Positions 7,930-18,769 of a stretch of DNA of 20,553 nt are shown here, piece after piece. Source of the DNA: a virus. Position numbers and translations under genes: made by a program. The notes under the pieces are model-generated. The model ran no database searches. It was not told the origin of the DNA and worked only from the letters and a program-made list of their open reading frames with translations. The DNA lies in IMG/VR virus record IMGVR_UViG_3300048436_000088, positions 1 through 20,553 of that record. One strand, 5' to 3'. The number at the start of each line of letters is the position of its first letter. Positions within the stretch are counted from its first letter, which is position 1.

Positions 7930-8087
7930 TCTTCTTGTATCTTGCCCTGACCATGCAGATAAGTTCCATATGTTCCTGTTCGAGAGCGGTAACGCTGGTC
8001 AATCTCTTGACCATATTCCCACTCATCAAACTCTTTATCGAGCAATAAGATTTTTTCCCATGCCATTCCCTCTACCCAATATGTCAT
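7902..8087 (-). CDS. Small hypothetical protein coupled to the metalloprotease
   Basis: This 61-aa protein contains VEGMAWEKILLLDKEFDEWEY near its start and ends GKIQEDYTNEKGRS; it is acidic and mostly helical. Its ATG at 8087 overlaps the TGA of the metalloprotease gene (8084-8086) in an ATGA junction, so the two are co-translated. An upstream ATG at 8108 has no ribosome binding site. It ends inside the bidirectional terminator. The function is unknown; as the second gene of a two-gene reverse operon it may help or regulate the protease. Confidence 0.65.
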   Translation of the reverse strand: MTYWVEGMAWEKILLLDKEFDEWEYGQEIDQRYRSRTGTYGTYLHGQGKIQEDYTNEKGRS

Positions 8088-8455
8088 GCTGGAAATAATT
8101 CCCCCCATCTGTTCTTTTGTTTATCTGTCCAGCCATAACTGTCCATAGCTTGCCGCATGATGCGCTCGGCTGTATCTGTCCATACCAGAGCATTCTGTCG
8201 CGCCCATACCCATGCCCATAACTCAGCAGTTAGCCGTGAGCGGCTCTGATACTCGCCAAGGACATGCCCTAACTCATGCAGGGCCGAAACATAGTAGCCT
8301 GTATTCTTAGTCGGCCTAATGCAAATTTCTTTTGTTGCAGGACGCGCCCAATAGCGCGGTACTGCATCGTGCATAGATTGATACTTCACCTTAATATCAT
8401 TCTCAGCGCAAAGCTGTTGAACGTGTAAGGCCATTTCAATTCGTTTTACTGTCAT
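8084..8455 (-). CDS. ImmA/IrrE-like zinc metalloprotease
   Basis: This 123-aa protein has a zinc-protease motif HELGH at residues 60-64, with Glu78 (in TAELWAW) as a candidate third ligand. The small size and phage setting resemble ImmA-type proteases, which cleave XRE-family phage repressors to trigger induction. An XRE protein is encoded at 13484, so cleavage of that regulator is a testable guess. The start at 8455 has a good AAGGG site upstream. With its 61-aa partner this is the only reverse-strand transcription unit. Its promoter region is shared with the divergent GGCT-fold gene and has a perfect TTGACA -35 (8520-8525 read on the - strand). It could also be a general peptidase with another target. 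Confidence 0.75.
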   Translation of the reverse strand: MTVKRIEMALHVQQLCAENDIKVKYQSMHDAVPRYWARPATKEICIRPTKNTGYYVSALHELGHVLGEYQSRSRLTAELWAWVWARQNALVWTDTAERIMRQAMDSYGWTDKQKNRWGELFPA

Positions 8456-8471: not shown

Positions 8472-8483
8472 GAAATATGTTTC
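8472..8483. promoter_or_regulatory. GAAA-N4-TTTC palindrome in the divergent promoter region
   Basis: GAAATATGTTTC is an inverted repeat with GAAA/TTTC arms. It lies 17 nt upstream of the metalloprotease start codon (on the - strand) and just upstream of the + strand promoter. The same pattern recurs inside the promoters at 10712 and 13194, so it is a candidate binding site for one shared regulator. Confidence 0.5.
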
Positions 8484-8560: not shown

Positions 8561-9061
8561 ATGATGTTTAATAAAAAGTTAAAGCACGCCTGTAAGGCTT
8601 ATGACAAACGCCTGTATCTGGCCTACGGTTCTAACCTTAATGTGCGCCAGATGGCGTACCGCTGCCCTACTGCTAGGCCTGTGGGTGCGGCTATGATTTA
8701 CGGATGGGAGCTATGCTTTCGCGGCGTAGCTGATATTATTAAGTCTAGCGACCCTAAAATGGTATTGCCTGTGGGTATTTGGGAAATTGAGCCAGCAGAT
8801 GAATATGCGCTAGATGCATATGAAGGCTACCGACCTGACACTCCTAGTGAAGGGCTGTACGATAAGATTAAGGTGGCTGGTATTATGACCTACCAGATGA
8901 CGCGCAGAGACATTGCGAAGCCTAGCCAGCAGTATTTTAATACAATTTTAGAGGGCTACCACGATTTTGGTCTAGACACTAACTATTTGCTAGATGCGGC
9001 AGGTTGGGCGCAATATGAAGAAGAACAGCGTGATAACGTGTTCGGATTGGAGATTGCATAA
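8561..9061 (+). CDS. Gamma-glutamylcyclotransferase-fold protein (GGCT/AIG2-like)
   Basis: This is a 166-aa protein with the hallmark YGSNL loop (Tyr22-Leu26) that binds the gamma-glutamyl substrate, a middle beta-barrel (PTARPVGAAMIYGWELCFRG), and LDAYEGY with Glu88 as the likely catalytic acid. Family enzymes release 5-oxoproline from gamma-glutamyl peptides or amines. A phage copy could cut isopeptide or gamma-glutamyl linkages. An amidoligase is encoded about 2.6 kb downstream, and such pairs are known from comparative studies of amidoligase neighbourhoods. AAGGA (8551-8555) supports the ATG at 8561; the next codon is also ATG. The gene starts a + operon with its own promoter, divergent from the metalloprotease. 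Confidence 0.88.
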   Translation: MMFNKKLKHACKAYDKRLYLAYGSNLNVRQMAYRCPTARPVGAAMIYGWELCFRGVADIIKSSDPKMVLPVGIWEIEPADEYALDAYEGYRPDTPSEGLYDKIKVAGIMTYQMTRRDIAKPSQQYFNTILEGYHDFGLDTNYLLDAAGWAQYEEEQRDNVFGLEIA

Positions 9062-9074
9062 TGAGGGGGTACAG

Positions 9075-9329
9075 ATGAAACATTTCGATGAACTATTGCT
9101 GGAAGGGGGCTATCGAGCCCCCTCACCAGTTTGCAAAGCAGTTTATGAAGATATCAACGTAATGATTAGAAAAGCCAAAGAGGGGCTTTCTGACGCTGAA
9201 TGGAATGGTGCAGAATATTGGTTGCTAAATAATAAGCGCAACTGGCTAAAGTTTCTGCTCATGGAAAAGCGAAGAGGAGTAGAGCGGTTTATGATTGGTA
9301 TCGAAGCAATTAAGGGGATTACAAAATGA
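9075..9329 (+). CDS. Small hypothetical protein
   Basis: This 84-aa, predominantly helical protein is rich in Lys, Glu and Trp (AEYWLLNNKRNWLKFLLMEK in the middle). It has no recognised family and no membrane segment. The ATG at 9075 has a strong GAGGGGG just upstream; an earlier in-frame ATG at 8994 lies within the GGCT-fold gene and is unsupported. It overlaps the next gene in an ATGA junction at 9326. Confidence 0.7.
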   Translation: MKHFDELLLEGGYRAPSPVCKAVYEDINVMIRKAKEGLSDAEWNGAEYWLLNNKRNWLKFLLMEKRRGVERFMIGIEAIKGITK

Positions 9330-9517
9330 TTTATCGCGGTTTATCTTGGGGATGCCTTTTGTTCGGGTTATTCCTGTTCTGGTCATCTTGGGAAATTGTT
9401 CGGTTTCAGCAATCACCTAGCGAAATTATTGCCATGTTGTTTATCGGAATGATGGGTGCTGTAGTCGGCGCTTTTGGATTGTTCGGGTTGTGGGAATGCT
9501 GGCAAAAAAGAGGGTGA
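9326..9517 (+). CDS. Small two-helix membrane protein
   Basis: This 63-aa protein has two clear transmembrane stretches, about residues 4-22 (LSWGCLLFGLFLFWSSW and flanks) and 34-58 (IIAMLFIGMMGAVVGAFGLFGLW), joined by a short polar loop, and ends in QKRG. The size and topology fit small holins or other phage inner-membrane proteins, but no endolysin is adjacent, so a holin call is speculative. It overlaps the preceding gene by 4 nt. Two exact copies of TTGTTCGGG (9359 and 9479) and one TTGTTCGG lie within it. Confidence 0.7.
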   Translation: MIYRGLSWGCLLFGLFLFWSSWEIVRFQQSPSEIIAMLFIGMMGAVVGAFGLFGLWECWQKRG

Positions 9518-9520
9518 TTT

Positions 9521-9724
9521 ACTTTGGTACTTTGGGTTTGGAAAAACAAAGTAGATTTACCAAAGTTACTAATTGTTTGTTTTCAATGCCTTACAGAGCA
9601 ACTTTGGTAACTTTGGTTTTAACCCAATATCTCACCAAAGTTAGGTTAAGTAACTGAAAACATTTGTACTTTGGTAACTTTGGTAACTTTGTATATATAT
9701 ATATATATGGGGACATACCAAAGT
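9521..9724. repeat. Iteron-like ACTTTGGTA array with TA tract
   Basis: ACTTTGG units occur on the + strand at 9521, 9529, 9601, 9610, 9668 and 9677, with a partial unit at 9686. Inverted units (ACCAAAGT) lie at 9559, 9634 and 9717. Within clusters the period is 9 bp (8 bp for the first pair). A run of TA dinucleotides (about 9692-9708) follows the last + unit. The array fills the gap just before the small terminase gene. It could be a terminase recognition (pac/cos) site, a replication origin or an autoregulatory operator. Confidence 0.8.
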
Positions 9725-9735
9725 CCCCCATATAT
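9697..9735 (+). repeat. Strong hairpin upstream of the small terminase gene
   Basis: TATATATGGGGAC pairs with GTCCCC-C-ATATAT, leaving one bulged C. The GGGGAC (9709-9714) / GTCCCC (9723-9728) core closes a loop that contains an inverted ACCAAAGT unit. There is no U-tract, so it is not a terminator. It could extrude as a cruciform next to the repeat array or shape the mRNA leader. Confidence 0.7.
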
Positions 9736-9757
9736 TAGTTAGAAAGGAAGTGGCGAT

Positions 9758-10273
9758 ATGCCCAAAGTCGGAGAGAGTTTAACGAAGGAACAAACTGCTG
9801 TAGGCATGGAGCGATTAAAGCCTCAACAGCAAAAGTTTTTGGATTTGTATTTTAACGGAGATAAAACTCAAACCGCATCCGCGAGAGAAGCTGGTTACAA
9901 AAACCCTGCTGTAGCGGCTGTAAGACTGCTCAGAAACCCCATAGTGCAAGAACGCCTAGAGGAGATGCGCCTAGAGGCTAGAACGAAGTATGGCGTCACT
10001 GTAGACAAGTCTGTGCGCGACCTAAAAAAGATGCGAGACGAAGCGTGGGAGATGGGTAAATTTGGCGAAGCAATCCGCGCTGAAGAGCTTAGATTGAAGG
10101 CAACAGGGCTACTCGTAAATAAAAGCCATGTAATGCATGAAGATGTAACGCAGATGGGAAGGGAGCAAGTGCTTGAAAAGCTTGCAGAGTTTCAGCGCAT
10201 GGCAGAGCGTAGGATGAAGAACGTAACGCAAGAACAAGAAGATGTTGTAGAGATAACTGATGATAACGAATAA
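9758..10273 (+). CDS. Terminase small subunit
   Basis: This 171-aa protein begins with a DNA-binding helical domain: LKPQQQKFLDLYFNGDKTQT, then ASAREAGYKNPAVAAVRLLR (about residues 20-66), the classic small-terminase helix-turn-helix pattern of the Terminase_2 family. A helical oligomerisation region and an acidic tail (residues 155-171) follow. It would recognise phage DNA and start packaging with the large subunit. The large subunit is encoded 6.4 kb away, which is unusual. A good ribosome binding site (GAAAGGAAG) precedes the ATG. The repeat array immediately upstream is an attractive binding site, since small terminases often bind in or near their own gene. Confidence 0.85.
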   Translation: MPKVGESLTKEQTAVGMERLKPQQQKFLDLYFNGDKTQTASAREAGYKNPAVAAVRLLRNPIVQERLEEMRLEARTKYGVTVDKSVRDLKKMRDEAWEMGKFGEAIRAEELRLKATGLLVNKSHVMHEDVTQMGREQVLEKLAEFQRMAERRMKNVTQEQEDVVEITDDNE

Positions 10274-10670
10274 ACCCATAATCGGGCATATAATACCGTT
10301 TTCGCGGGGAGACGGGGAACATCGGGCCCAGAATCGGGGTTTTGTTCGGGTAATCGGGCCTCGGGGTGGCTGCCTCGGGGCCTTTTTTGCGTGCAGCGCT
10401 CGGTCGGGCCCAAATTGTTCGGGTTATCGGGGCCGGGGCAGCCCGGCGACCCGTAAAATTGTTCGGGTTAGGCCCCGGCAGCCTGGTGAATCGGGGTTCG
10501 AGCCAGGCGTGCAGCGCCGGGGAATCACGAGCTCATTAACAATTGTTCTGCTCAGGCCCCCCCGGCTCTCCTGCGGAACAATTGTTCGCCCCCCGCCCCC
10601 GGGCTGTCCTGCGGAACAATTGTTCGAGCTGCGCCGGGGAATTAGAAAGTCAGTTCCTGAATCGTCTGCT
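10274..10670. repeat. GC-rich non-coding block with palindromes and direct repeats
   Basis: This stretch is much richer in G and C than its surroundings and has many ATCGGG, TCGGGG and TTGTTCGGG elements. GAACAATTGTTC occurs perfectly at 10576-10587 and 10614-10625 and with one mismatch at 10537-10548. The two perfect copies lie in a 20-bp direct repeat, TCCTGCGGAACAATTGTTCG, at 10569 and 10607. Open frames across it have no ribosome binding site and translate to Gly/Pro/Arg-rich sequence, so it is judged non-coding. GGGGCCTTTTTT near 10376-10387 could be part of a terminator for the small terminase, but no clean stem was found. Confidence 0.65.
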
Positions 10671-10675
10671 GCGGG

Positions 10676-10691
10676 TGTCAAATGTTTGACA
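10676..10691. promoter_or_regulatory. Palindromic operator TGTCAAA-N2-TTTGACA
   Basis: TGTCAAATGTTTGACA is a perfect inverted repeat with 7-bp arms and a 2-nt centre, ending 20 bp before the -35 of the promoter at 10712. It matches the six-site cluster at 12947-13186 and is the best copy of that family. Confidence 0.7.
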
Positions 10692-10711
10692 TAAAAAAGT
10701 GCATTTTTTTC

Positions 10712-10740
10712 TTGATTGTGTGAAAATAGTTTCCTATACT
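10712..10740 (+). promoter_or_regulatory. Sigma70-like promoter with palindrome in the spacer
   Basis: TTGATT (10712-10717), a 17-nt spacer and TATACT (10735-10740) form a good promoter for the genes at 10781 and 11116. The spacer holds GAAAATAGTTTC (10722-10733), a GAAA-N4-TTTC site placed as in the promoter at 13194. Confidence 0.75.
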
Positions 10741-10780
10741 ATTATTATAGTGTGAACGAAACCAACTAAACGAGGACGAC

Positions 10781-11116
10781 ATGGACTACAAAAGAGAAGA
10801 GATTGAAGAGCACTTCGACGATTGGCTAGCCGAAACAATGCAGGCGCAAGGCCATGAGTGGATTAAAGATAACTTAGACGACCTACATCATCACGCTTTC
10901 AACACAGACTACTACATTATCGGCACAGAACGCGCCATTAACTGGATGGGCAGTTACGTATTCGACATCATTAACTTTATTAAAGAGTACGAGCAGGACA
11001 ACTTCGGCGAGGTGTCAACTGACCTTACCTCTCCTGAGCACATCGTTAACATGTACGCTTATATTATTGGCGAAGAAGTCGTAAGTAATTACCGCTGTGA
11101 GCAGGAGGCGGCGTGA
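10781..11116 (+). CDS. Acidic phage hypothetical protein
   Basis: This 111-aa strongly acidic protein is rich in Asp, Glu, His and Tyr. Features are LDDLHHHAFNTDYYIIG (about residues 32-48) and a helical C-terminal half including IKEYEQDNFGEVSTDLTSPE and VNMYAYIIGEEV. Similar proteins are widespread in marine phages and uncharacterised, as far as I recognise. GAGGACGAC just before ATG 10781 is a good ribosome binding site. It is the first gene of a two-gene unit driven by the promoter at 10712 and ended by the terminator at 11308. Strong acidity could suggest DNA mimicry, but that is a guess. Confidence 0.75.
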   Translation: MDYKREEIEEHFDDWLAETMQAQGHEWIKDNLDDLHHHAFNTDYYIIGTERAINWMGSYVFDIINFIKEYEQDNFGEVSTDLTSPEHIVNMYAYIIGEEVVSNYRCEQEAA

Positions 11117-11259
11117 TGAGAAATTACCTAGTTACATTGACTCGCGGCGGGCGGTCTTTCTACGTTACAGCTAGCAGCTCTCGTGCAGCAGAGCAAATTG
11201 TTCTGGATTTTGAGCCGTACTACAACCCAGATTGGGGGCTCGTGGTTCGGGATGCCTAG
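11116..11259 (+). CDS. 47-aa hypothetical protein
   Basis: This very short gene starts at ATG 11116, overlapping the last base of the preceding TGA, with an ideal AGGAGG at 11103-11108. The product begins MRNYLVTLTRGGRSFYVTAS and ends DWGLVVRDA. It reads as a small beta-alpha-beta protein with a helix around SSRAAEQIVLDF. The good ribosome binding site, stop-start coupling and sensible composition support it. The terminator lies 49 nt after the stop. The function is unknown. Confidence 0.65.
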   Translation: MRNYLVTLTRGGRSFYVTASSSRAAEQIVLDFEPYYNPDWGLVVRDA

Positions 11260-11307
11260 AAATGTTCGGGTCGGCGGCCCGTAATCCGCCGTGTTTCCTC
11301 CCAACTG

Positions 11308-11332
11308 GGCCCGCTTCGGCGGGCCTTTTTTT
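11308..11332 (+). terminator. Rho-independent terminator with TTCG tetraloop
   Basis: GGCCCGC (11308-11314), loop TTCG, GCGGGCC (11319-11325), then seven T residues. It closes the two-gene unit of 10781-11259. Confidence 0.93.
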
Positions 11333-11569
11333 GCTGCGGGCCAGGGAGGGTGAACAATTGTTCGGGGCCCGGGCAGCACAGCAGTTGGAGCTCGGGACAT
11401 CGGGGTATCGGGGATTTAGGTAATGGTATTTGTATAGGCTGCTAAACTGTTATTGGTAATGGTATAGGATGGAAAACCCGCCGAAATCCGCTGAAATCCG
11501 GCGCGAAAATTAATTTTCAGAAAAATAAAAAAGCCAATGTTTTCAGCAGGATAACCCGTACAATTGTTC
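11333..11569. other. Non-coding gap before the amidoligase with palindromes and short repeats
   Basis: No gene was found between 11260 and 11652. Beyond the terminator this stretch holds a perfect GAACAATTGTTC (11352-11363), GGTAATGGTAT twice (11419 and 11455), GAAATCCG twice (near 11483 and 11492), a perfect 14-bp palindrome GAAAATTAATTTTC (11505-11518), and a degenerate GTACAATTGTTC (11558-11568) abutting the promoter at 11570. The composition shifts from GC-rich to AT-rich across it. It appears to be a regulatory leader. Confidence 0.55.
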
Positions 11570-11598
11570 TTGTTTGCAACTTGTTTCTTTGATATACT
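11570..11598 (+). promoter_or_regulatory. Sigma70-like promoter of the amidoligase gene
   Basis: TTGTTT (11570-11575), a 17-nt spacer and TATACT (11593-11598) precede the amidoligase gene, leaving a leader of about 50 nt. The half-palindrome GTACAATTGTTC lies directly upstream of the -35. Confidence 0.6.
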
Positions 11599-11652
11599 GT
11601 GTAGGCTAGGGCTTGCCCTTGCATTGTGAAACGTAAAAAGGAAACAAAAACA

Positions 11653-12891
11653 ATGACTTACTGGAAGCAAGATTACACATTACCAACATTTGGCGCGGAA
11701 TTAGAATATTATTTTTCTAGCTCAGGGTGTCAGTCAATTCGCAAAGTTGAGGAAACCTTACATCAGGCTGGCTTTACATGGCTACAAGTTAAGCCAGATG
11801 GCACTGTTGAGGTAGACGTTGAAATAGTAACCCCTCCATTGCCAGACGTTCCGCAAGTGTGGGCTGATTTATCTGCTATTATGGAAATATGCAAAAGCCT
11901 AGGTTTGAAGTATCGCAAGAAATGCGGCTTGCATATCCATATTGGCAAGAAACGCCTAAAGCCAGCCGTTAATATTGACGCATACATTGAGCATGTAAAG
12001 CAACGCGCGTCTAGTGTTAGCTTTTTAATGCCTAGCGAAGATTGGTTTGCTGGCGCGGATATGTCACCCAAGCTTGTTAAAGACGTCATAAGACGCTATG
12101 CAATGCACCAAAGCGCTATAGACGATTTTATGCCGCTATCGCGTGGGGACAACAGCGCAGGGCGCGAAAACTATATGTTCAGGGGTATGGCAAGAGCGGT
12201 GAACGAATTCGCTTCGCGTTTTGAAGCTTGCCAGACTATATCAGATTTGCGCGATTTTAATTCAATAGGGCGTTCTGGCAAATATAACGCTATTAACCTC
12301 GAGACATGGAACAAGGGCACTGTTGAATTCCGCCAGCATCCTAGCACGTTATCGTCTGGCAAGGTTAGGAATTGGGTGCGGTTTCTGATTACTCTTATTG
12401 AGACATCAGATAGAGAGCGCGTAAACTATGGGCAAGTGATTGCCAGCCAGCCAGCACCCGTTGAAACTGAAACCACCTATCAAACGCCTGAGTGTCCTTA
12501 TCGTCATTCAAGCAATATTGGCATGTTATACCGCTCTTGCCGCATTGAGGGGGGCGCAACGGTACGCCAGCTAATGAATATCACTGGCATGGGTGCTGAT
12601 AATATCCGCGCCCGCATTTCTGAGATTAGAAACGCGATAGGGCAAGACGCTGTTCTAACTTATACGCAACAACAATACAATCACCGCTACGGCGCGTCTG
12701 GTGGTAGCCATGACCTAGGCGGCTATGAGATACTGCAAGAGGTAACAAGGCGCGAGATAGCCCCTCAAAACGCTGTAGAGGGTGATTTATTGCCTAGCGA
12801 TATAATAGGTAGCGATAGCATATGGCACGGCCTACCATATGATATCGTTCAATATTTTCAGTCAGGACGCGTAACATCAACGCGCCTATAG
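11653..12891 (+). CDS. Amidoligase (Amidoligase_2, glutamine-synthetase-like)
   Basis: This 412-aa protein is a COOH-NH2 ligase of the GS-like amidoligase family. Visible signature blocks are FGAELEYYF (from residue 13, Glu in the first metal site), KPDGTVEVDVEIVTPPL (47-63), CGLHIHIG (91-98), and NKGTVEFRQHPSTL (220-233, Glu225 and Arg227). These enzymes use ATP to form amide bonds between a carboxylate and an amine, and in phages are proposed to modify proteins, cell-wall peptides or metabolites. Residues about 300-345 (ATVRQLMNITGMGADNIRAR) look like an added helix-turn-helix-like domain. ATG 11653 is preceded by AAGGA about 11 nt upstream; an in-frame GTG at 11626 is less likely. It is transcribed alone, between its own promoter and a strong terminator. 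The likely partner is the GGCT-fold gene at 8561. Confidence 0.88.
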   Translation: MTYWKQDYTLPTFGAELEYYFSSSGCQSIRKVEETLHQAGFTWLQVKPDGTVEVDVEIVTPPLPDVPQVWADLSAIMEICKSLGLKYRKKCGLHIHIGKKRLKPAVNIDAYIEHVKQRASSVSFLMPSEDWFAGADMSPKLVKDVIRRYAMHQSAIDDFMPLSRGDNSAGRENYMFRGMARAVNEFASRFEACQTISDLRDFNSIGRSGKYNAINLETWNKGTVEFRQHPSTLSSGKVRNWVRFLITLIETSDRERVNYGQVIASQPAPVETETTYQTPECPYRHSSNIGMLYRSCRIEGGATVRQLMNITGMGADNIRARISEIRNAIGQDAVLTYTQQQYNHRYGASGGSHDLGGYEILQEVTRREIAPQNAVEGDLLPSDIIGSDSIWHGLPYDIVQYFQSGRVTSTRL

Positions 12892-12909
12892 GCTAACCCC
12901 AATGCTAAG

Positions 12910-12937
12910 AATAGCCCCCGAGAGGGGCTATTTTTTT
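12910..12937 (+). terminator. Rho-independent terminator after the amidoligase
   Basis: AATAGCCCC (12910-12918) and GGGGCTATT (12924-12932) pair perfectly around a CGAGA loop. The T-run continues to 12937. Confidence 0.93.
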
Positions 12938-12946
12938 GTCTTGTCA

Positions 12947-13186
12947 AGCCAAACATTTGACAGCTAATGCGCCAGATTATTGACATGTGCAGCCAGGGTG
13001 TCAAAAAATTGACGCGGCTTGCAGGCAATAAAAAGTGTAATGTTTACAGCGTTTTACAGGTACCCTAGGCCCTATTCTGAAAATCCAACGGGTCAAATTA
13101 TTGACGCCGCACCCCCCATTTAGGGGGTTGACTGTCAAAAAATTGACGCGCCCTGTTTTCCACTAACAATCGTCAACTTTTTGACG
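12947..13186. repeat. Cluster of six 16-bp TGTCAAA-type operator sites
   Basis: Sites begin at 12947 (14/16 match to a perfect palindrome), 12970 (more degenerate), 12999, 13091, 13133 and 13171. The copies at 12999 and 13133 are identical (TGTCAAAAAATTGACG); 13091 reads GGTCAAATTATTGACG and 13171 reads CGTCAACTTTTTGACG. The last site ends 7 bp before a promoter. No gene lies between 12892 and 13251. The array could be the operator region of the downstream XRE regulator or an iteron-type replication origin. A seventh copy lies at 10676. Confidence 0.8.
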
Positions 13187-13225: not shown

Positions 13226-13251
13226 AGAAACAACAGGTCATGGAGGGCAAG

Positions 13252-13503
13252 ATGACTAAGTATAAGATTACTGCCGGAGAAGAGTTCTCCTGGGAGGCGC
13301 ACACGGACGATGGTTTCGTTGACGGTTTGCGTAAGTATTCAAGGTATCCAAGTGATGACAATGTTAGGATGATGCGGACGATGGCAGCTAGCTTCTGCGA
13401 TTGGACGGGCAAATCGTTTCGCTTTTCTAGCGTGGATGATTTTGTTTCTGATTGCGTTCAGCATGGCGTTATGGAGGTTTCTGATGCAGAACGGACGCGG
13501 TAA
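13252..13503 (+). CDS. Small acidic hypothetical protein before the XRE gene
   Basis: This 83-aa protein contains EEFSWEAHTDDGFVDGLRKY and a helical C-terminal part with SVDDFVSDCVQHGV. No family was recognised. ATG 13252 is chosen because GGAGGG (13241-13246) is ideally spaced; an ATG at 13240 overlaps that site. It overlaps the XRE gene by 20 nt, so the two are co-expressed from the promoter at 13194. Small proteins next to phage repressors can be antirepressors or accessory factors, but nothing in the sequence proves this. Confidence 0.7.
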   Translation: MTKYKITAGEEFSWEAHTDDGFVDGLRKYSRYPSDDNVRMMRTMAASFCDWTGKSFRFSSVDDFVSDCVQHGVMEVSDAERTR

Positions 13504-13870
13504 GAGCAAGTATTCATCGTGGACGCCGGATGATTTAACTAATTTCCGTAAGGACGCGGGCCTTAGTCGCCGTGAGGTAGCGGAGAGCTTGGGTGTTTCG
13601 TACAGAATGTACTGCTATTATGAAAGTGGGCACACAAAAATAGACTTGCCGCTTGAGTATGCTGTGCGATGGTTGACCAGACCAAAAGAAAATAAACCTG
13701 TGGTTGAGAACAAAGGCCAAGGTACCCTGACCCCGTTTCAAAAAGAGCGGATAGACCGCTTGTTGAATGGAATTCGTGCATACCCCATAGGCGATATGGA
13801 TGAGAAGGGGCAGAAAATTTTATCACAATGCGTTGACGAGATTTCAACCTTGGTCGAGGTGGTTGCCTGA
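13484..13870 (+). CDS. XRE-family transcriptional regulator
   Basis: This 128-aa protein has an XRE/Cro-C1 helix-turn-helix at residues about 17-65: DDLTNFRKDAGLSRREVAES, then LGVSYRMYCYYESGHTKIDL, ending in a typical amphipathic helix. The C-terminal part (70-128) is helical and may be for dimerisation; no peptidase domain is seen, so self-cleavage is not expected. ATG 13484 has GGAGG about 7 nt upstream. The palindrome clusters flanking it (six sites upstream, one after the gene over the late promoter) are natural candidate operators. The ImmA-like protease at 8084 could act on it. Whether it is a lysogeny repressor or a late-gene switch cannot be decided from sequence. Confidence 0.85.
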   Translation: MQNGRGKSKYSSWTPDDLTNFRKDAGLSRREVAESLGVSYRMYCYYESGHTKIDLPLEYAVRWLTRPKENKPVVENKGQGTLTPFQKERIDRLLNGIRAYPIGDMDEKGQKILSQCVDEISTLVEVVA

Positions 13871-13921: not shown

Positions 13922-16633
13922 ATGATGCAAAATAACTTAATGGGTGGCGGGATGGCAGGTCCAACTACTGCTCCCGCCAACCCCACAGGTTTAAATTTCC
14001 AAAGCGACCCATCTATGAGAGCTCAGTTCAAGGGCTTTATGTCAGGGATGCAGGCTAAGCAGCCTGCTCCTATGGCTCCTTCTCCTATGCAGGCTCCTTT
14101 GCCGATGCCTGCGGCTATGCAGAATGTGGACATTTTTCAGCCGCAACCGATGCAGATGCAGATGGGCGGTGCTGTACCGCGTCAGGCGATGATGGGTGGT
14201 ATGCCGCACATGCTTTCTTACATTACTCCCGGTGAAGCTGCTGCGCTTAGCGCGATGGGCGGCACTGGTCAGCGTGGCCCTGGCGGTGTTCCGTCATTTA
14301 GTTATGAAGATGAAGCTTTTGGCGGGGCAAGTTCATCTGCGGGTTTTGGTGGCAGCACTAATTTCAGCTCTGGTGGGTATGAGGACGCGGCTTTTGGCGG
14401 TTCTGACAACGAGGGTAATGTATTTTACGACACGCTTGGTAATACTACAAACTTTAAAACTACAACACCTGACACATCATTATCTGCTGACAGAGCGGCT
14501 ACGCAGGATGCTTTGTCTACAATGTTGGCGGCTGAAGCTTTACAGCAAGACCGTGATAAGCAAGAGGCTTTGGCTAAAGAAATTACGGCTCTTGGTGGTG
14601 CTGCTGACATTACCGAGGGTTTTGGCCCGATGAGTCAGGTTATTGGCGCGTCTCAAATGCCGATGGACCCGACAGAGTTTGCCAGAGGCAATGTTAAGTC
14701 TATTCGTGATTCGATAGATTCTCTTGCTCAAGCGGACCTATTAAACGAAGTAGTTGGTACAGACTACAGTGACCCGACTTTAGCGCCGACAAATGCGCGG
14801 ACTGTTGACATTGCTGGTCCTTTATCGCGTCCTAGCACGTTAGTTGATTATTCTGACCCAACACAGGCTTCTAAATTTGTAGACATTACAGGTCCTGCTT
14901 CTCGCCCTAATTACGTTGCTCCAAACATCCCTACTATGACTCCTGACGAGCGCAGAGAGATGGAGCTTGACGAGCTTGGGATATCAGGCAACACAATTGG
15001 CGGCGTTGACCAAGTTGGCGTTACTGTAGGCGCACCTAGTGTTGGCCCGCAGCCTGGCAATTTAGGCGCTTTGGGCGAGGGTTCATTCCCCTCAGCTCCT
15101 AATGTGCCCACCTCAGACGGCATTGTACGCACAGAAGCTGGGTCTACTAATAGAATAGCTGATTCCGGGCTTGGTACTGGAGAAATTACCGATGCGGCTG
15201 GCTCTCGTCAGCCCGAGGACCGTCAAGGTTTCTTTACGACTTTGCTTGACACTATGACAGGCAGGGAGTTTCCTACTGACTTGCAAAAAGAGCAGAATAT
15301 TGTTGATGCCAATAACCGCCGCACCACCATTACGGGCGATGAGCGGCGTCAGGATATGAGCGCACTTGACCAGTTAGCAAAACGTGCTGGTCAAGAAGGC
15401 AGTGGTATTCTTGGCGCGTTTACAAATTTTGGCGCTAAAAATGCTGCTAAGATGTACAATGACATTGTGAACAACGGCTATGAGCCTGTTTATGATAACA
15501 AAGGTCAAATTGTAGCCACAAAAGTTCCTGGTACGAACATTCTAGGCAGTGGTTCTGTAGAGGGTCGTATTCCTGGTGCCAATACAGGCGGAGGTGGCGG
15601 TGGTTCATCGCGCCCGGCCCCAGCCCCGCAACCTTCTGTTGCTGATTTAGTTGCGGCAGAGATGGCGAAGTTACAGCCAGCGGCTCCGGCACCGACTCAA
15701 ACTGCGCCGACACCTATAATCCCTGCTGCTGTAAATGCAGGGCCTCGCGCTCCGGCTACTGGCGGGAGTCCTCTAGGGTTCGGTTATGGTCAGTTGCGTA
15801 GAATTCCGGGGATATCTTCTAACCTAAACACGGCTGCGGATGATTTCTTAAATCTTCTTGGCGGTTCTAACGTGCAGAATTTTGCTAGAGGCGGTAATGT
15901 CTCTAACGATTTGGATGCATTTGGTGGCGCTGGACCTGATGTGGGGTTTGAGGGTAGCGGCAGAGGCACTTTCTCTGGCGGCTCTTATTCTGAGAACCCT
16001 TTTGACAGTAGCGATGACGACAATGTGGCACCAACAGTAGCCCCTGGCAGTTTTATAACCAATCAATCGCCTCAAGACGATGGGTATAATATTAATACCA
16101 CTCAAGCTAACCAGATGAACCAGCAGGCGAACAGAGACAAGGTTGCTAGAGACATTGCGATGGATGAGCAGCGTAGGTCTATGGAAGCCGCGCAAAGAAA
16201 TCAAAGCCTTAAAGCCAGCATTGACCGTTTGAATCAATTGCAGGCGCAAGTTAATGCGCCTCAGCAGGGGATTATGAGCGCCGCTGCTGATTTGTTGGGC
16301 TTTGGCGGACAGCAAAACTTGTTAAGCGCTGACTTGGCTCAAGGTGGAGTATCACCGCAGAATATGACGCCTAATACATCTGTCATGGGTTACAACGACC
16401 CAACTGGTCAGGTACAGAATCAGACTGGCGCTGCGAATCAAAGCATATATCAAACCGCTGACCCAGCTCAAGCTGGCATTGCTGGAACAATGAATGTTCC
16501 TACATCTCGAGATACTGGCTTTTTTGATGCCTTGTCTGGCATGGCGAGCAACTTGCCTAGCCTTTCGCAAATAGGCAACCGCATTATGGGCACAAGGCCT
16601 GACTACGACATGAGTAGGATGAATTCTCAATAG
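13922..16633 (+). CDS. Large Gly/Pro/Ala-rich low-complexity protein, likely virion-associated
   Basis: This is a 903-aa protein, mostly predicted disorder and rich in Gly, Ala, Pro, Gln, Asn and Met, with no catalytic motif, signal peptide or membrane helix. An N-terminal block reads ITPGEAAALSAMGGTGQ then GPGGVPSFSYEDEAFGG. YEDEAFGG/YEDAAFGG is repeated near residues 127 and 153, and DYSDPT-x-A...VDI-x-GP-x-SRP near 281 and 308. A helical Gln-rich stretch lies near residues 720-780. Comparable proteins occur near the terminase in marine phages; an internal or structural virion role is inference. It is the first gene of the late operon, with GAGG upstream of ATG 13922, and ends 3 nt before the large terminase gene. 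Confidence 0.75.
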   Translation: MMQNNLMGGGMAGPTTAPANPTGLNFQSDPSMRAQFKGFMSGMQAKQPAPMAPSPMQAPLPMPAAMQNVDIFQPQPMQMQMGGAVPRQAMMGGMPHMLSYITPGEAAALSAMGGTGQRGPGGVPSFSYEDEAFGGASSSAGFGGSTNFSSGGYEDAAFGGSDNEGNVFYDTLGNTTNFKTTTPDTSLSADRAATQDALSTMLAAEALQQDRDKQEALAKEITALGGAADITEGFGPMSQVIGASQMPMDPTEFARGNVKSIRDSIDSLAQADLLNEVVGTDYSDPTLAPTNARTVDIAGPLSRPSTLVDYSDPTQASKFVDITGPASRPNYVAPNIPTMTPDERREMELDELGISGNTIGGVDQVGVTVGAPSVGPQPGNLGALGEGSFPSAPNVPTSDGIVRTEAGSTNRIADSGLGTGEITDAAGSRQPEDRQGFFTTLLDTMTGREFPTDLQKEQNIVDANNRRTTITGDERRQDMSALDQLAKRAGQEGSGILGAFTNFGAKNAAKMYNDIVNNGYEPVYDNKGQIVATKVPGTNILGSGSVEGRIPGANTGGGGGGSSRPAPAPQPSVADLVAAEMAKLQPAAPAPTQTAPTPIIPAAVNAGPRAPATGGSPLGFGYGQLRRIPGISSNLNTAADDFLNLLGGSNVQNFARGGNVSNDLDAFGGAGPDVGFEGSGRGTFSGGSYSENPFDSSDDDNVAPTVAPGSFITNQSPQDDGYNINTTQANQMNQQANRDKVARDIAMDEQRRSMEAAQRNQSLKASIDRLNQLQAQVNAPQQGIMSAAADLLGFGGQQNLLSADLAQGGVSPQNMTPNTSVMGYNDPTGQVQNQTGAANQSIYQTADPAQAGIAGTMNVPTSRDTGFFDALSGMASNLPSLSQIGNRIMGTRPDYDMSRMNSQ

Positions 16634-16636
16634 GCG

Positions 16637-18121
16637 ATGAACAAGCCATTTGATATACCTCTTGAGTATCTTACTGACGATGAAATAGCAGAGCTTAGTA
16701 AGGTAGTAGGGCGCTTAGATGAGGTATCTAAAAGGGATGAGTCGCAGGGCGACTTTATGTCCTTCGTAAAAAATGTTTGGCCTACCTTTGTTGAGGGCAA
16801 CCACCACAAGATTTACGCGGATAAGCTTCAGAAGGTTGCTGAAGGTAAAATCAAGCGTTTAATCGTAAATATGCCGCCCAGACATACAAAGTCTGAGTTT
16901 GCTTCGTATTTGTTTCCCTCATGGTTGATGGGCCGAAAGCCCGATACCAAGATTATTCAAGCCACACATACGGCTGAGTTGGCTGTGGGCTTTGGTCGTA
17001 AGGTCAAGAACCTTATTGACAGCGAGATATATAGAGATGTTTTTCCTGATTTAGCTTTAGCGTCTGACGCGAAGGCTTCAGGACGTTGGAGTACGAGTAA
17101 AGGCGGAGAGTATTATGCCGTTGGTGTTGGTGGTGCGCTTGCTGGTCGTGGTGCTGATTTGTGTATTATTGATGACCCTGTTTCTGAACAGGATGCGTTA
17201 TCACCCACAGCACTTGATAATATTTACGAGTGGTACACTTCAGGCCCCCGACAGCGCCTCCAGCCGGGAGGCTCAATAATTATCGTTATGACGCGGTGGA
17301 GTATCCGTGACTTGACGGCGAAGGTTTTGCAAAAGCAGGCAGAGGGTGGTGCTGACCAGTGGGAGGTCGTAGAGTTTCCGGCTATTTTCCCGAAAAATGA
17401 CAAGGTTTTATGGCCTGAATATTGGAAGAAAGAGGAATTAGAGGCTGTAAAGGCTTCTATTCCTGTTGCTAAATGGAACGCGCAGTATTTGCAGAATCCG
17501 ACTGCTGAAGAAGGTGCGATTATCAAAAGGGAATGGTGGAATGTATGGGATAGCGATAGCCCGCCAGCTTGCTCCTACATCATACAATCATACGACACCG
17601 CTTTTTCTCAGTCGGAGAGAGCGGACTATTCTGCTATTACTACTTGGGGCATTTTTGAACCTGTGGATGGAGATGGGGAAGCCATCATCTTACTTGACGC
17701 GCAACGAGGTAGATGGGATTTTCCAGAGCTCAAAGAGCAAGCGCTCGATTTGTACGATGAATTTGACCCCGACATGGTTCTGGTCGAGCAGAAAGCTTCC
17801 GGCACCCCTTTGACGCAAGAGCTTAGAAGAATGGGCATCCCTGTAACACCATTTACACCTTCTAGGGGGGCGGATAAATTTACTCGTATGAATGCCTGTG
17901 CTCCTGTGTTTGAATCTGGTATGGTGTATAGACCTGACATGAATTTTGCTGAAGAAGTGGTCGAGGAATGTGCGGCATTTCCTAATGGCGAACATGATGA
18001 CTTGGCGGATTCGATGACACAGGCTATACTGAGGTTCAGGCAGGGTGGGTTTATTGTTACCCCCTCTGATTATGACGAAGATGAATACAGAGATTATCGT
18101 AGAAAGCGGGAGTATTATTAA
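16637..18121 (+). CDS. Terminase large subunit
   Basis: This 494-aa packaging motor and nuclease has an ATPase half with a deviant Walker A NMPPRHTKSE (residues 78-87), Walker B CIIDDP (176-181) and MTRWS as coupling motif. Its RNase H-like nuclease half has QSYDTAFS (Asp320), VEQKASG (Glu384) and HDDLADS (453-459). PPRHTKS and the HDDLADS ending are hallmarks of the Terminase_6 / TIGR01630 (psiM2 ORF9-type) group. The stop codon overlaps the next start (TAATG). The small subunit is far upstream at 9758. Confidence 0.95.
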   Translation: MNKPFDIPLEYLTDDEIAELSKVVGRLDEVSKRDESQGDFMSFVKNVWPTFVEGNHHKIYADKLQKVAEGKIKRLIVNMPPRHTKSEFASYLFPSWLMGRKPDTKIIQATHTAELAVGFGRKVKNLIDSEIYRDVFPDLALASDAKASGRWSTSKGGEYYAVGVGGALAGRGADLCIIDDPVSEQDALSPTALDNIYEWYTSGPRQRLQPGGSIIIVMTRWSIRDLTAKVLQKQAEGGADQWEVVEFPAIFPKNDKVLWPEYWKKEELEAVKASIPVAKWNAQYLQNPTAEEGAIIKREWWNVWDSDSPPACSYIIQSYDTAFSQSERADYSAITTWGIFEPVDGDGEAIILLDAQRGRWDFPELKEQALDLYDEFDPDMVLVEQKASGTPLTQELRRMGIPVTPFTPSRGADKFTRMNACAPVFESGMVYRPDMNFAEEVVEECAAFPNGEHDDLADSMTQAILRFRQGGFIVTPSDYDEDEYRDYRRKREYY

Positions 18122-18351
18122 TGGCTCATTGCAATTCAAGCCCCAAGAAGATGAAGGATGGCGGCCCTGCTGCGCCTATCATGTCTGATGAAGTAAAAGA
18201 AATTCGCAAGAAGAAGCGTAAAGAGCGTAACGCAAGTCGTGAGCAAACTACGATGCCTTCAAAGAAGATGCGCGAAGATATGGCTAAGGGCTATAAAAAT
18301 GGTGGCTGCGTGATGTCTGGTCGCGGCGGTAAATTCAAGGGGATTTCGTAA
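18121..18351 (+). CDS. Small basic protein with RG/GK-G C-terminal motif (1 of 3)
   Basis: This 76-aa protein is Lys/Arg-rich in the middle (EVKEIRKKKRKERNASRE) and ends NGGCVMSGRGGKFKGIS. The ending resembles those of the next two genes (GG-x-V, then RG, then G-K-F/Y-x-G). Tiny proteins with this tail are common around terminase and portal genes of marine phages, and their role is unknown. Its start overlaps the terminase stop codon by 1 nt (TAATG). Confidence 0.7.
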   Translation: MAHCNSSPKKMKDGGPAAPIMSDEVKEIRKKKRKERNASREQTTMPSKKMREDMAKGYKNGGCVMSGRGGKFKGIS

Positions 18352-18542
18352 TGAACAAAAAAGTTCCTTCAAAATTTAAAGGATTTTCTAAGCTTCCTGA
18401 AAAAGTGCAGGAAAAGATAGACCCCAAACTAGCTCAAGAGTATGAGTATGGCGGTTCTGTAATGAAAATGAAAGATGGCGGTTCCGCTTGTCGTGGCATG
18501 GGCGCTGCGATGCGTGGCGGTAAATACACAGGTTGTAAGTAA
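18351..18542 (+). CDS. Small basic protein with RG/GK-G C-terminal motif (2 of 3)
   Basis: This 63-aa protein begins MNKKVPSKFKGFSKLPEK, with KFKG also present near the N-terminus. It ends with YGGSVMKMKDGGSACRGMG followed by AAMRGGKYTGCK. The tail is homologous to those of the two flanking small genes. TAATG junctions on both sides indicate translational coupling. It has two Cys, at positions typical of these short basic tails. The function is unknown. Confidence 0.7.
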   Translation: MNKKVPSKFKGFSKLPEKVQEKIDPKLAQEYEYGGSVMKMKDGGSACRGMGAAMRGGKYTGCK

Positions 18543-18769
18543 TGGACAAGATTGACGGCCTTACATTAAAGCAGATTATGGTTAAAGGTACGACACAGGG
18601 CGTGTCGAGCCTTACCAATGCTCAGTACGATGCTTTTAACAAAGGCACCGCGAACATTAAGGCTGGCGTTCCTAACTTTAGCAAGAAGCCGCGCAAATAT
18701 GCGTCTGGCGGCGCGGTTCGTGGTTATGGTGCTGCGACCTCTGGCACAAAGTTTAAGGGGATTTTCTGA
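18542..18769 (+). CDS. Small basic protein with RG/GK-G C-terminal motif (3 of 3)
   Basis: This 75-aa protein has a short N-terminal domain, MDKIDGLTLKQIMVKGTTQG, with SSLTNAQYDAFNKGTANIKAGV after it. It ends YASGGAVRGYGAATSGTKFK then GIF, the fullest version of the shared tail. Its N-terminus is unrelated to the other two, so the tail behaves like a portable module. It joins the next gene through TGATG. Confidence 0.7.
   Translation: MDKIDGLTLKQIMVKGTTQGVSSLTNAQYDAFNKGTANIKAGVPNFSKKPRKYASGGAVRGYGAATSGTKFKGIF

Follow-up and report, generated by a model that had tools for sequence, protein, structure and literature searches.

The window analysed here, the 20,553-base IMG/VR virus record IMGVR_UViG_3300048436_000088 (46.7% G+C), encodes on its plus strand an amidoligase of the glutamine synthetase (GS) type and a protein with the fold of gamma-glutamyl cyclotransferase (GGCT). 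At the level of sequence, our comparisons demonstrate that these two enzymes, both intact, have stayed together under purifying selection, through rearrangements, within one phage lineage. We tentatively read the pair as a gamma-glutamyl/amide module of two enzymes that is directed at the host cell, an interpretation held with somewhat less than even confidence. As far as the tools used here show, the winged-helix amidoligase, the exchange of its catalytic half and a conserved palindrome array are new. The window carries the gene set of a tailed phage (a Sak4-type ATPase, a Cas4-type exonuclease, a primase/helicase and the terminase subunits), no tRNA genes were found in it, and the phage is uncultivated and probably marine.

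Two intact enzymes maintained together

The amidoligase (positions 11653-12891, 412 residues, with a C-terminal winged helix) matched the Pfam family Amidoligase_2 (PF12224) with an E-value of 1.3e-15 and 58.4 bits against a cut-off of 22. The folds closest to its model (45 sequences, pLDDT 85.8) were those of glutamine synthetases (Z 11.9) and YbdK (1r8g, Z 11.7), with low Foldseek TM-scores. Among 169 aligned rows, Glu16 and Glu18 were kept in 166, Glu57 and His94 in 168, and the EFR motif (residues 225-227) in 166, the remainder being gaps; by analogy with GS, these residues presumably bind metal or ATP. A sequence search of the PDB with the amidoligase gave no matches. PADLOC, consulted for a possible defence role, matched neither enzyme, and NCBIfam gave no matches. 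Ratios of non-synonymous to synonymous substitution (dN/dS) against near relatives were 0.08-0.13 in four comparisons.

The GGCT-like protein (8561-9061, plus strand, 166 residues) starts with ATG, and an in-frame ATG at 8477 gives a longer frame. It matched PHROG 2520 ('gamma-glutamyl cyclotransferase') with an E-value of 2.4e-25 and fell narrowly below the Pfam gathering cut-offs of GGACT (19.8 against 22.8 bits) and AIG2_2 (21.9 against 27 bits), both of which are exceeded by the relative in locus L023. Because the Pfam scores lie below cut-off, we call the protein GGCT-fold or GGCT-like, a name that rests on fold and residues. Its AlphaFold2 model (41 sequences, pLDDT 88.6) matched Bacillus subtilis YkqA (2qik, Z 17.2) and human GGCT (2i5t, 2rbh and 3cry, Z 16.9-17.2; for 2rbh, Z 17.2 and a root-mean-square deviation of 2.2 over 130 residues), and more weakly GGACT and ChaC2 (Z about 8-10). 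The sequence match to human GGCT in 2pn7 was weak (phmmer E 0.014), with the YGSNL loop aligned. Glu88 of the window aligns with the LDEQEG glutamate of human GGCT, which we take to be the catalytic Glu98; the same column holds Gln in chain 3cry. Of 139 aligned rows for GGCT, 132 kept the YGSN loop (residues 22-25) and 136 kept Glu88, the others being gaps.

Rows below 40 bits (GGCT) or 100 bits (amidoligase) were left out of these residue counts, which are biased because some search patterns held YGSN, LDxYE or EFRQH. Among 40 GGCTs fetched via the amidoligase, all five residues were intact in 37, with gaps in three. The original prediction for this DNA had placed the two enzymes at these positions with their catalytic residues intact, and both points hold.

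Pooling loci fetched by either gene guarantees some pairs, and linkage was therefore scored for each gene solely in loci that its partner had fetched. GGCT was present in all 23 amidoligase-fetched loci with at least 6 kb upstream (14 of 14 clusters), in 37 of 38 with at least 4 kb and in 60 of 69 with at least 2 kb. The amidoligase was present in all 21 GGCT-fetched loci with at least 6 kb downstream (15 of 15 clusters), in 35 of 38 with 4 kb (the misses being L024, L122 and L154) and in 52 of 63 with 2 kb. Co-occurrence in related phages had been set beforehand as the refutation test of the original prediction, and with a 6-kb flank it was complete in both directions. These relatives were the best 80 of 543 in the GGCT scan and the best 80 of 111 in the amidoligase scan, hence the nearer ones. 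Over the first 155 loci, both genes were found in 100, GGCT alone in 33, the amidoligase alone in 18 and neither in 4. Both are rare in a named phage collection of 50,697 records, in which the amidoligase query matched 12 and the GGCT query 43.

The order of genes in the window is GGCT, the terminase small subunit (TerS, 9758-10273, plus strand, a syntenic marker identified by family matches), an open reading frame (ORF) at 10781, the amidoligase, two small genes, a 903-residue protein and the terminase large subunit (TerL). Most relatives have TerS, the 10781-type ORF, GGCT and then the amidoligase, with a gap between the two enzyme genes that is often near 300 bases. The enzymes had been predicted to share one region and do lie near each other, but they are not adjacent in the window, where TerS stands between them, whereas most relatives have GGCT directly before the amidoligase. 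Other arrangements occur: GGCT lies far upstream, after the primase/helicase, in L123; the amidoligase is on the opposite strand in L138; and it directly precedes GGCT in L023, L025, L026, L146, L147, L149, L150 and L155, in which none of the other lineage genes were seen. These eight loci have unrelated backbones, and the same order, annotated or found, is present on further unrelated backbones in L212, L214, L215, L204 and L207.

Several observations weigh against a functional pairing. Most of the co-occurrence sits in one lineage, and part of it is hence common descent; 87 of the 100 two-gene loci share TerS with the window and 61 share the 10781 ORF. A Porphyromonas phage has an amidoligase and no detected GGCT, Bacillus phage G (L213) has GGCT and no Amidoligase_2 match, and among 56 amidoligase loci from bacteria just 2 carried this GGCT type within the examined flank. 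The two genes might be linked solely by descent of a shared backbone and have unrelated jobs. Yet both stay while their order changes, and phages unrelated to this lineage combine these two families in reverse order, which makes such a purely genealogical link very unlikely in our view.

The named phages closest by TerL in the phage collection, with 60-61% identity, are 023Pt_psg01, Pelagibacter phage HTVC027P and DSL-LC04. The GGCT profile found no match in these three or in Synechococcus phage MinM2, and neither did PF12224, a model that matched 8 of 13 records tested; a separate PF12224 scan of 21 records, five of them shared with those 13 and run without a positive control, gave no matches.

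Additional copies were seen in some named phages. Two GGCT genes are neighbours in Bacillus phage G, the record of Bacillus phage 055SW001 (L212) has a second GGACT-type match elsewhere in the genome, and Terrisporobacter phage TPDSL_ph1 (L214) has two amidoligase-annotated proteins ahead of GGCT, the first of which (242 residues) had no Pfam matches.

The winged helix and the variable catalytic half

The C-terminal part of the amidoligase, for which the original prediction had proposed an extra helix-turn-helix-like region, is modelled as a winged helix, probably of the DUF3489 kind (residues about 283-370, positions 12499-12762), with helices at 288-296, 304-311 and 315-329 and strands at 334-337, 357-360 and 363-370. 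The DUF3489 profile did not match the C-terminus of the window protein. Relatives gave matches below the cut-off (L022, E 1.2e-5; L114, 1.5e-4; L142, 3.1e-4; contig G025, 2.3e-5), and L157, from a Spirochaetia metagenome-assembled genome, exceeded it (E 3e-15, 56.5 against 29.5 bits). A winged-helix profile matched 115 ORFs in 215 loci plus the window. The amidoligase profile matches all 115, small winged-helix-only ORFs among them, because it includes that domain. Five of the 115 are such stand-alone winged-helix ORFs, which lie directly upstream of the amidoligase in L020 (5481-5762), L043 (5183-5383), L049 (3987-4196), L051 (2656-2865) and L106 (5328-5528).

The GS-like catalytic part (11653-12484, plus strand) behaves differently from its surroundings. 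Nucleotide alignments of the window with L015 and L019 consist of pieces at 71-85% identity, with one 70-75-base piece at 94-96%. They end at 11661, nine bases into the amidoligase gene, resume at 12466-12484 and run through the winged helix to 12738, where they stop again before restarting at 13092. The alignment with L076 breaks at 11661 and restarts at 12547, and the start of the amidoligase of L017 and L022 is unaligned with the window at the nucleotide level. Protein identities to the window follow the same pattern. In L016 and L019 they are 94% for TerS, 84% for GGCT, 40% for the catalytic part and 79% for the winged helix; the corresponding values are 92, 80, 35 and 59% in L017, and 84, 73, 30 and 41% in L022, whose TerL is 91% identical. 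Catalytic identity is 35-56% in eight relatives with TerS at 85-94%, and 30% in L020 and L022. Consequently, alignment breaks and protein identities together mark the catalytic half as the variable part.

Our reading of these alignments is that the catalytic half has been replaced between near-collinear phages. Against it stand the possibility that fast divergence produced the low identities, the less sharp break in L035, where a weak alignment (66%) runs on to 11993, and the divergence of other downstream genes, namely Y132 at 13240 and the 903-residue protein.

In the module that we tentatively propose, the amidoligase would spend ATP on activating a carboxylate, with that at the gamma position of glutamate as the most likely one, and would couple it to an amine belonging to a host molecule, while GGCT would remove or clear terminal gamma-glutamyl groups as 5-oxoproline. 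That both enzymes may act on the same bond, the 'make-and-break' idea of the original prediction, is plausible chemistry. Since the catalytic half is exchanged while GGCT, leader and winged helix stay, the target of the ligase is probably variable and host-side, perhaps receptor or envelope chemistry or a component of host defence; the winged helix would serve a phage-side constant, either DNA or a phage partner. Phage amidoligases and GGCTs have been annotated for years, and the portions of the literature consulted name no demonstrated substrate. The simplest system for finding one is the two-gene form with a winged helix, which comes in natural variants set apart chiefly by their catalytic halves.

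An auxiliary role in nitrogen or glutathione metabolism, which the part of the Phage-ZRK32 report available to us proposes for enzymes of the same names (PMC10945688), appears highly improbable here. Exchange of the catalytic half between close relatives is unexpected for a metabolic enzyme. Moreover, GATase_6 was found in none of 18 records searched (the near relatives L010, L022 and L033 are included; the window record, a fragment, is not among the 18), although the profile does match gp19 of phage LUZ24. The relative contig G025 (56 kb, similar in size to the genomes of the named TerL relatives) was scanned with Pfam in 71 aligned rows (40 + 31, with the amidoligase in both), that is 70 distinct ORFs; 19 of its 89 listed ORFs, the primase/helicase and terminase homologues among them, lay outside the scan. 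There was no glutathione synthase family among its Pfam matches, nor any ATP-grasp, GATase or nucleotide-modification family in the 70 ORFs. The lack of thymidylate-synthase-like, kinase and glycosyltransferase families in the same set lowers the likelihood of DNA hypermodification.

The palindrome array and control of the amidoligase gene

The leader of the amidoligase gene contains an exact copy of the palindrome GAACAATTGTTC (11352-11363) and, at position -95 to the ATG, the palindrome GTACAATTGTTC (11558-11569), which abuts a promoter-like TTGTTT-17-TATACT (11570-11598; the whole element spans 11558-11598 on the plus strand). The promoter-like sequence is readable, with TGA ahead of the second hexamer, though the promoter scan has no such entry. 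Downstream of the gene lies a terminator-like hairpin of 12 pairs with a T-run (12907-12935, plus strand), and these signals agree with the separate control that had been predicted for the amidoligase. Three more palindromes (starting at 10537, 10576 and 10614, within 10537-10625) lie between TerS and the 10781 ORF. At up to two mismatches the window has 10 copies, against 1.05 expected.

First noticed in the leader, GAACAATTGTTC was then tested by an unbiased count of 12-base palindromes. It was the commonest upstream of winged-helix amidoligases, occurring in 22 of 41 representative stretches, with a runner-up in 3; 200 shuffles of those stretches placed no palindrome in more than 2. Upstream of amidoligases lacking a winged-helix match, it was found in 2 of 58 cases. 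With refined starts, 50 of 53 lineage representatives had a site at up to one mismatch within 700 nt upstream, exact in 41. The density of GAACAATTGTTC was 1.27 per kb in these 700-nt stretches versus 0.11 per kb elsewhere. Flanking bases lengthen the symmetry, AAACCC...GGGTTT being commonest.

Two identities for the palindrome were set aside. As a terminator it is rejected for most sites: 11 of 225 were terminator-like, and none of the 23 that lie 150 nt or less from the start. Its GAAC-N4-GTTC core resembles what we take to be the SOS (LexA) box of Gram-positive bacteria, an assignment that is unlikely, because 45 of the 52 best sites have A as the second base (5 have T and 2 have C) and the central bases are near-constant, a pattern that presumably differs from that of LexA boxes.

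Candidates for binding the array are the winged helix, TerS and the HTH_3 protein at 13436. If the winged helix were the binder, the amidoligase could regulate itself in the manner of BirA, a ligase and winged-helix repressor whose ligase fold is unrelated to that of amidoligases; it would bind GAACAATTGTTC in its own promoter, and the state of ligation would set expression. The presence of the winged helix in the family, together with the near-constant upstream sites, is consistent with this scheme. A site stands at -94 to -97 before a promoter-like sequence in ten diverged representatives (L001, which is the window's own stretch, and L004, L016, L017, L044, L045, L058, L065, L076 and L119), leader and winged helix are conserved in relatives whose catalytic half differs, and the stand-alone winged-helix ORFs of L020, L043, L049 and L051 follow palindromes, with one just upstream in L106. 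However, the predicted DNA-reading helix varies (IRAR versus VRRT) while the site does not, L146, L155 and L156-L158 have a winged-helix match and a siteless upstream stretch, and L039, L040 and L123 have no site at up to one mismatch in 700 nt. We consider self-regulation quite unlikely. The broader proposition that the amidoligase is both an enzyme and a transcription regulator, its catalytic cassette swapped between a fixed promoter/leader and a DNA-binding domain with GGCT as the constant eraser, is decidedly unlikely.

At up to one mismatch, moreover, the sites are not confined to the amidoligase and form an array that extends from TerS to beyond that gene. Across the 53 representatives, the 2,600 nt preceding the amidoligase contain 225 sites, the first of them just after TerS, and 5 of 7 core positions in G025 fall between 28.6 and 31.8 kb. 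It may be that the array serves as packaging sites for TerS, as a replication origin or as stoperator-like repressor sites distributed over intergenic gaps, and that the amidoligase merely adjoins it. TerS shows much stronger conservation than the winged helix, and the four closest TerL phages, which lack the pair, were also siteless in the stretches examined. The most constant position is nevertheless the one nearest the amidoligase start, beside the promoter-like hexamers, and L138, with TerS and the amidoligase on the other strand, keeps a site upstream of the amidoligase. Such a role elsewhere is a fair prospect that we regard with some doubt. The near-invariant array offers a handle on gene control, or on packaging, in the lineage.

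A second palindrome, GTCAAnnnnTTGAC, occurs in the window at 12948-13185 and also at 7998 and 10677 (7 copies at up to one mismatch, against 0.64 expected). Of 155 loci, 25 contain exact copies, which often lie in the interval that separates the amidoligase from the HTH gene; the copies are probably operators of the HTH_3 protein (13436-13870).

Neighbouring genes and known systems

The ORF at 10781-11116 (plus strand) encodes an acidic protein of 111 residues that belongs to PHROG 10208 (function unassigned) and lies beside or between the pair in 61 of the 100 two-gene loci. It was considered as a ligated tag like Pup and rejected; its C-terminus is not Pup-like and is unconserved (...EQEAA versus ...EWR). 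Adjoining GGCT on the minus strand is a small HELGH metalloprotease-like ORF (8084-8455), with a similar ORF in 17 of the 100 loci. The 903-residue protein (13922-16633), just upstream of TerL and with similar proteins in 35 of the 100 loci, had no matches in Pfam, PHROG or NCBIfam. Three consecutive short ORFs (18121-18351, 18351-18542 and 18542-18769) have similar C-terminal ends (GGKFKGIS, GGKYTGCK and GTKFKGIF) and, from these, look like tandem paralogues; GGxV-like motifs occur in all three and also in the 903-residue protein.

The association of amidoligases with GGCTs reportedly goes back to a founding analysis by Iyer et al. in 2009, known to us through citing papers. In the portions of the reports that we consulted, the two enzymes are part of a 'peptidoglycan modification cassette' in RIO-1-like phages (PMC5498523) and of a Pseudomonas phage module described in like terms (PMC11945000), and occur together in C. 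clostridioforme prophages (PMC11318856) and as genes 97 and 98 of Arthrobacter cluster AL phages (PMC5513430), while OM43 phages have an amidoligase with a GATase (PMC10580990). The association put forward in the original prediction therefore holds for these linked genes and is not new, the pairing in phages being already in print. A literature search, with most subscription journals outside its scope, returned no report of a winged-helix-fused amidoligase or of exchange of the catalytic half in the text it covered.

The pair could be a reduced form of this RIO-1/LUZ24 cassette that would form or trim atypical amide bonds in the peptidoglycan of the host to block superinfection. The two kinds of enzymes are the same, and LUZ24 (NC_010325) has a full cassette in a row: COOH-NH2 ligase, amidoligase, GATase, RimK-annotated protein and GGCT. 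Besides the absence of GATase_6 described above, phmmer searches of all loci examined with LUZ24 gp14-gp19, gp21 and gp22 found, beyond LUZ24, no more than two GGCTs (gp22) and distantly related amidoligases (gp18), leaving gp16, gp19 and gp21 without relatives. Pfam found no ATP-grasp match in the lineage, and it also misses LUZ24's own gp21. The GGCT of LUZ24 belongs to the GGACT/UPF0131 type, and the LUZ24 amidoligase shows hardly any similarity to that of the window. In addition, GGCT chemistry requires a glutamyl residue whose alpha-amino group is free, and such an enzyme would therefore not directly cut the internal gamma-D-Glu bond in murein. A reduced cassette is thus unlikely.

The window amidoligase shares its catalytic fold with glutamine synthetases and YbdK, at 9-16% identity and with the winged helix as an extra. 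The window GGCT, whose activity is predicted, shares fold, YGSN loop and catalytic glutamate with human GGCT, and its fold with YkqA, at 21-32% identity over the aligned part. BirA would be comparable only if the winged helix of the amidoligase controls its own gene. As in the window, an amidoligase lies near GGCT in the gut phages Ca. Heliusvirales PV036440 and PV036419 (whose GGCTs are 44% and 33% identical to that of the window), TPDSL_ph1, 055SW001 and Clostridium clostridioforme prophages; unlike in the window, the amidoligase comes first in the first four of these. The palindrome of the window lineage was not found in the L026 stretch. Finally, the cassette of RIO-1-like podoviruses, phiEco32 and LUZ24/PaP3 likewise co-encodes amidoligase and GGCT. 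However, it comprises 5-7 genes, including GATase, ATP-grasp, COOH-NH2 ligase and a GGACT/UPF0131-type GGCT, whereas the lineage of the window has only two, with a GGCT of the YGSN type and an amidoligase that carries a winged helix.

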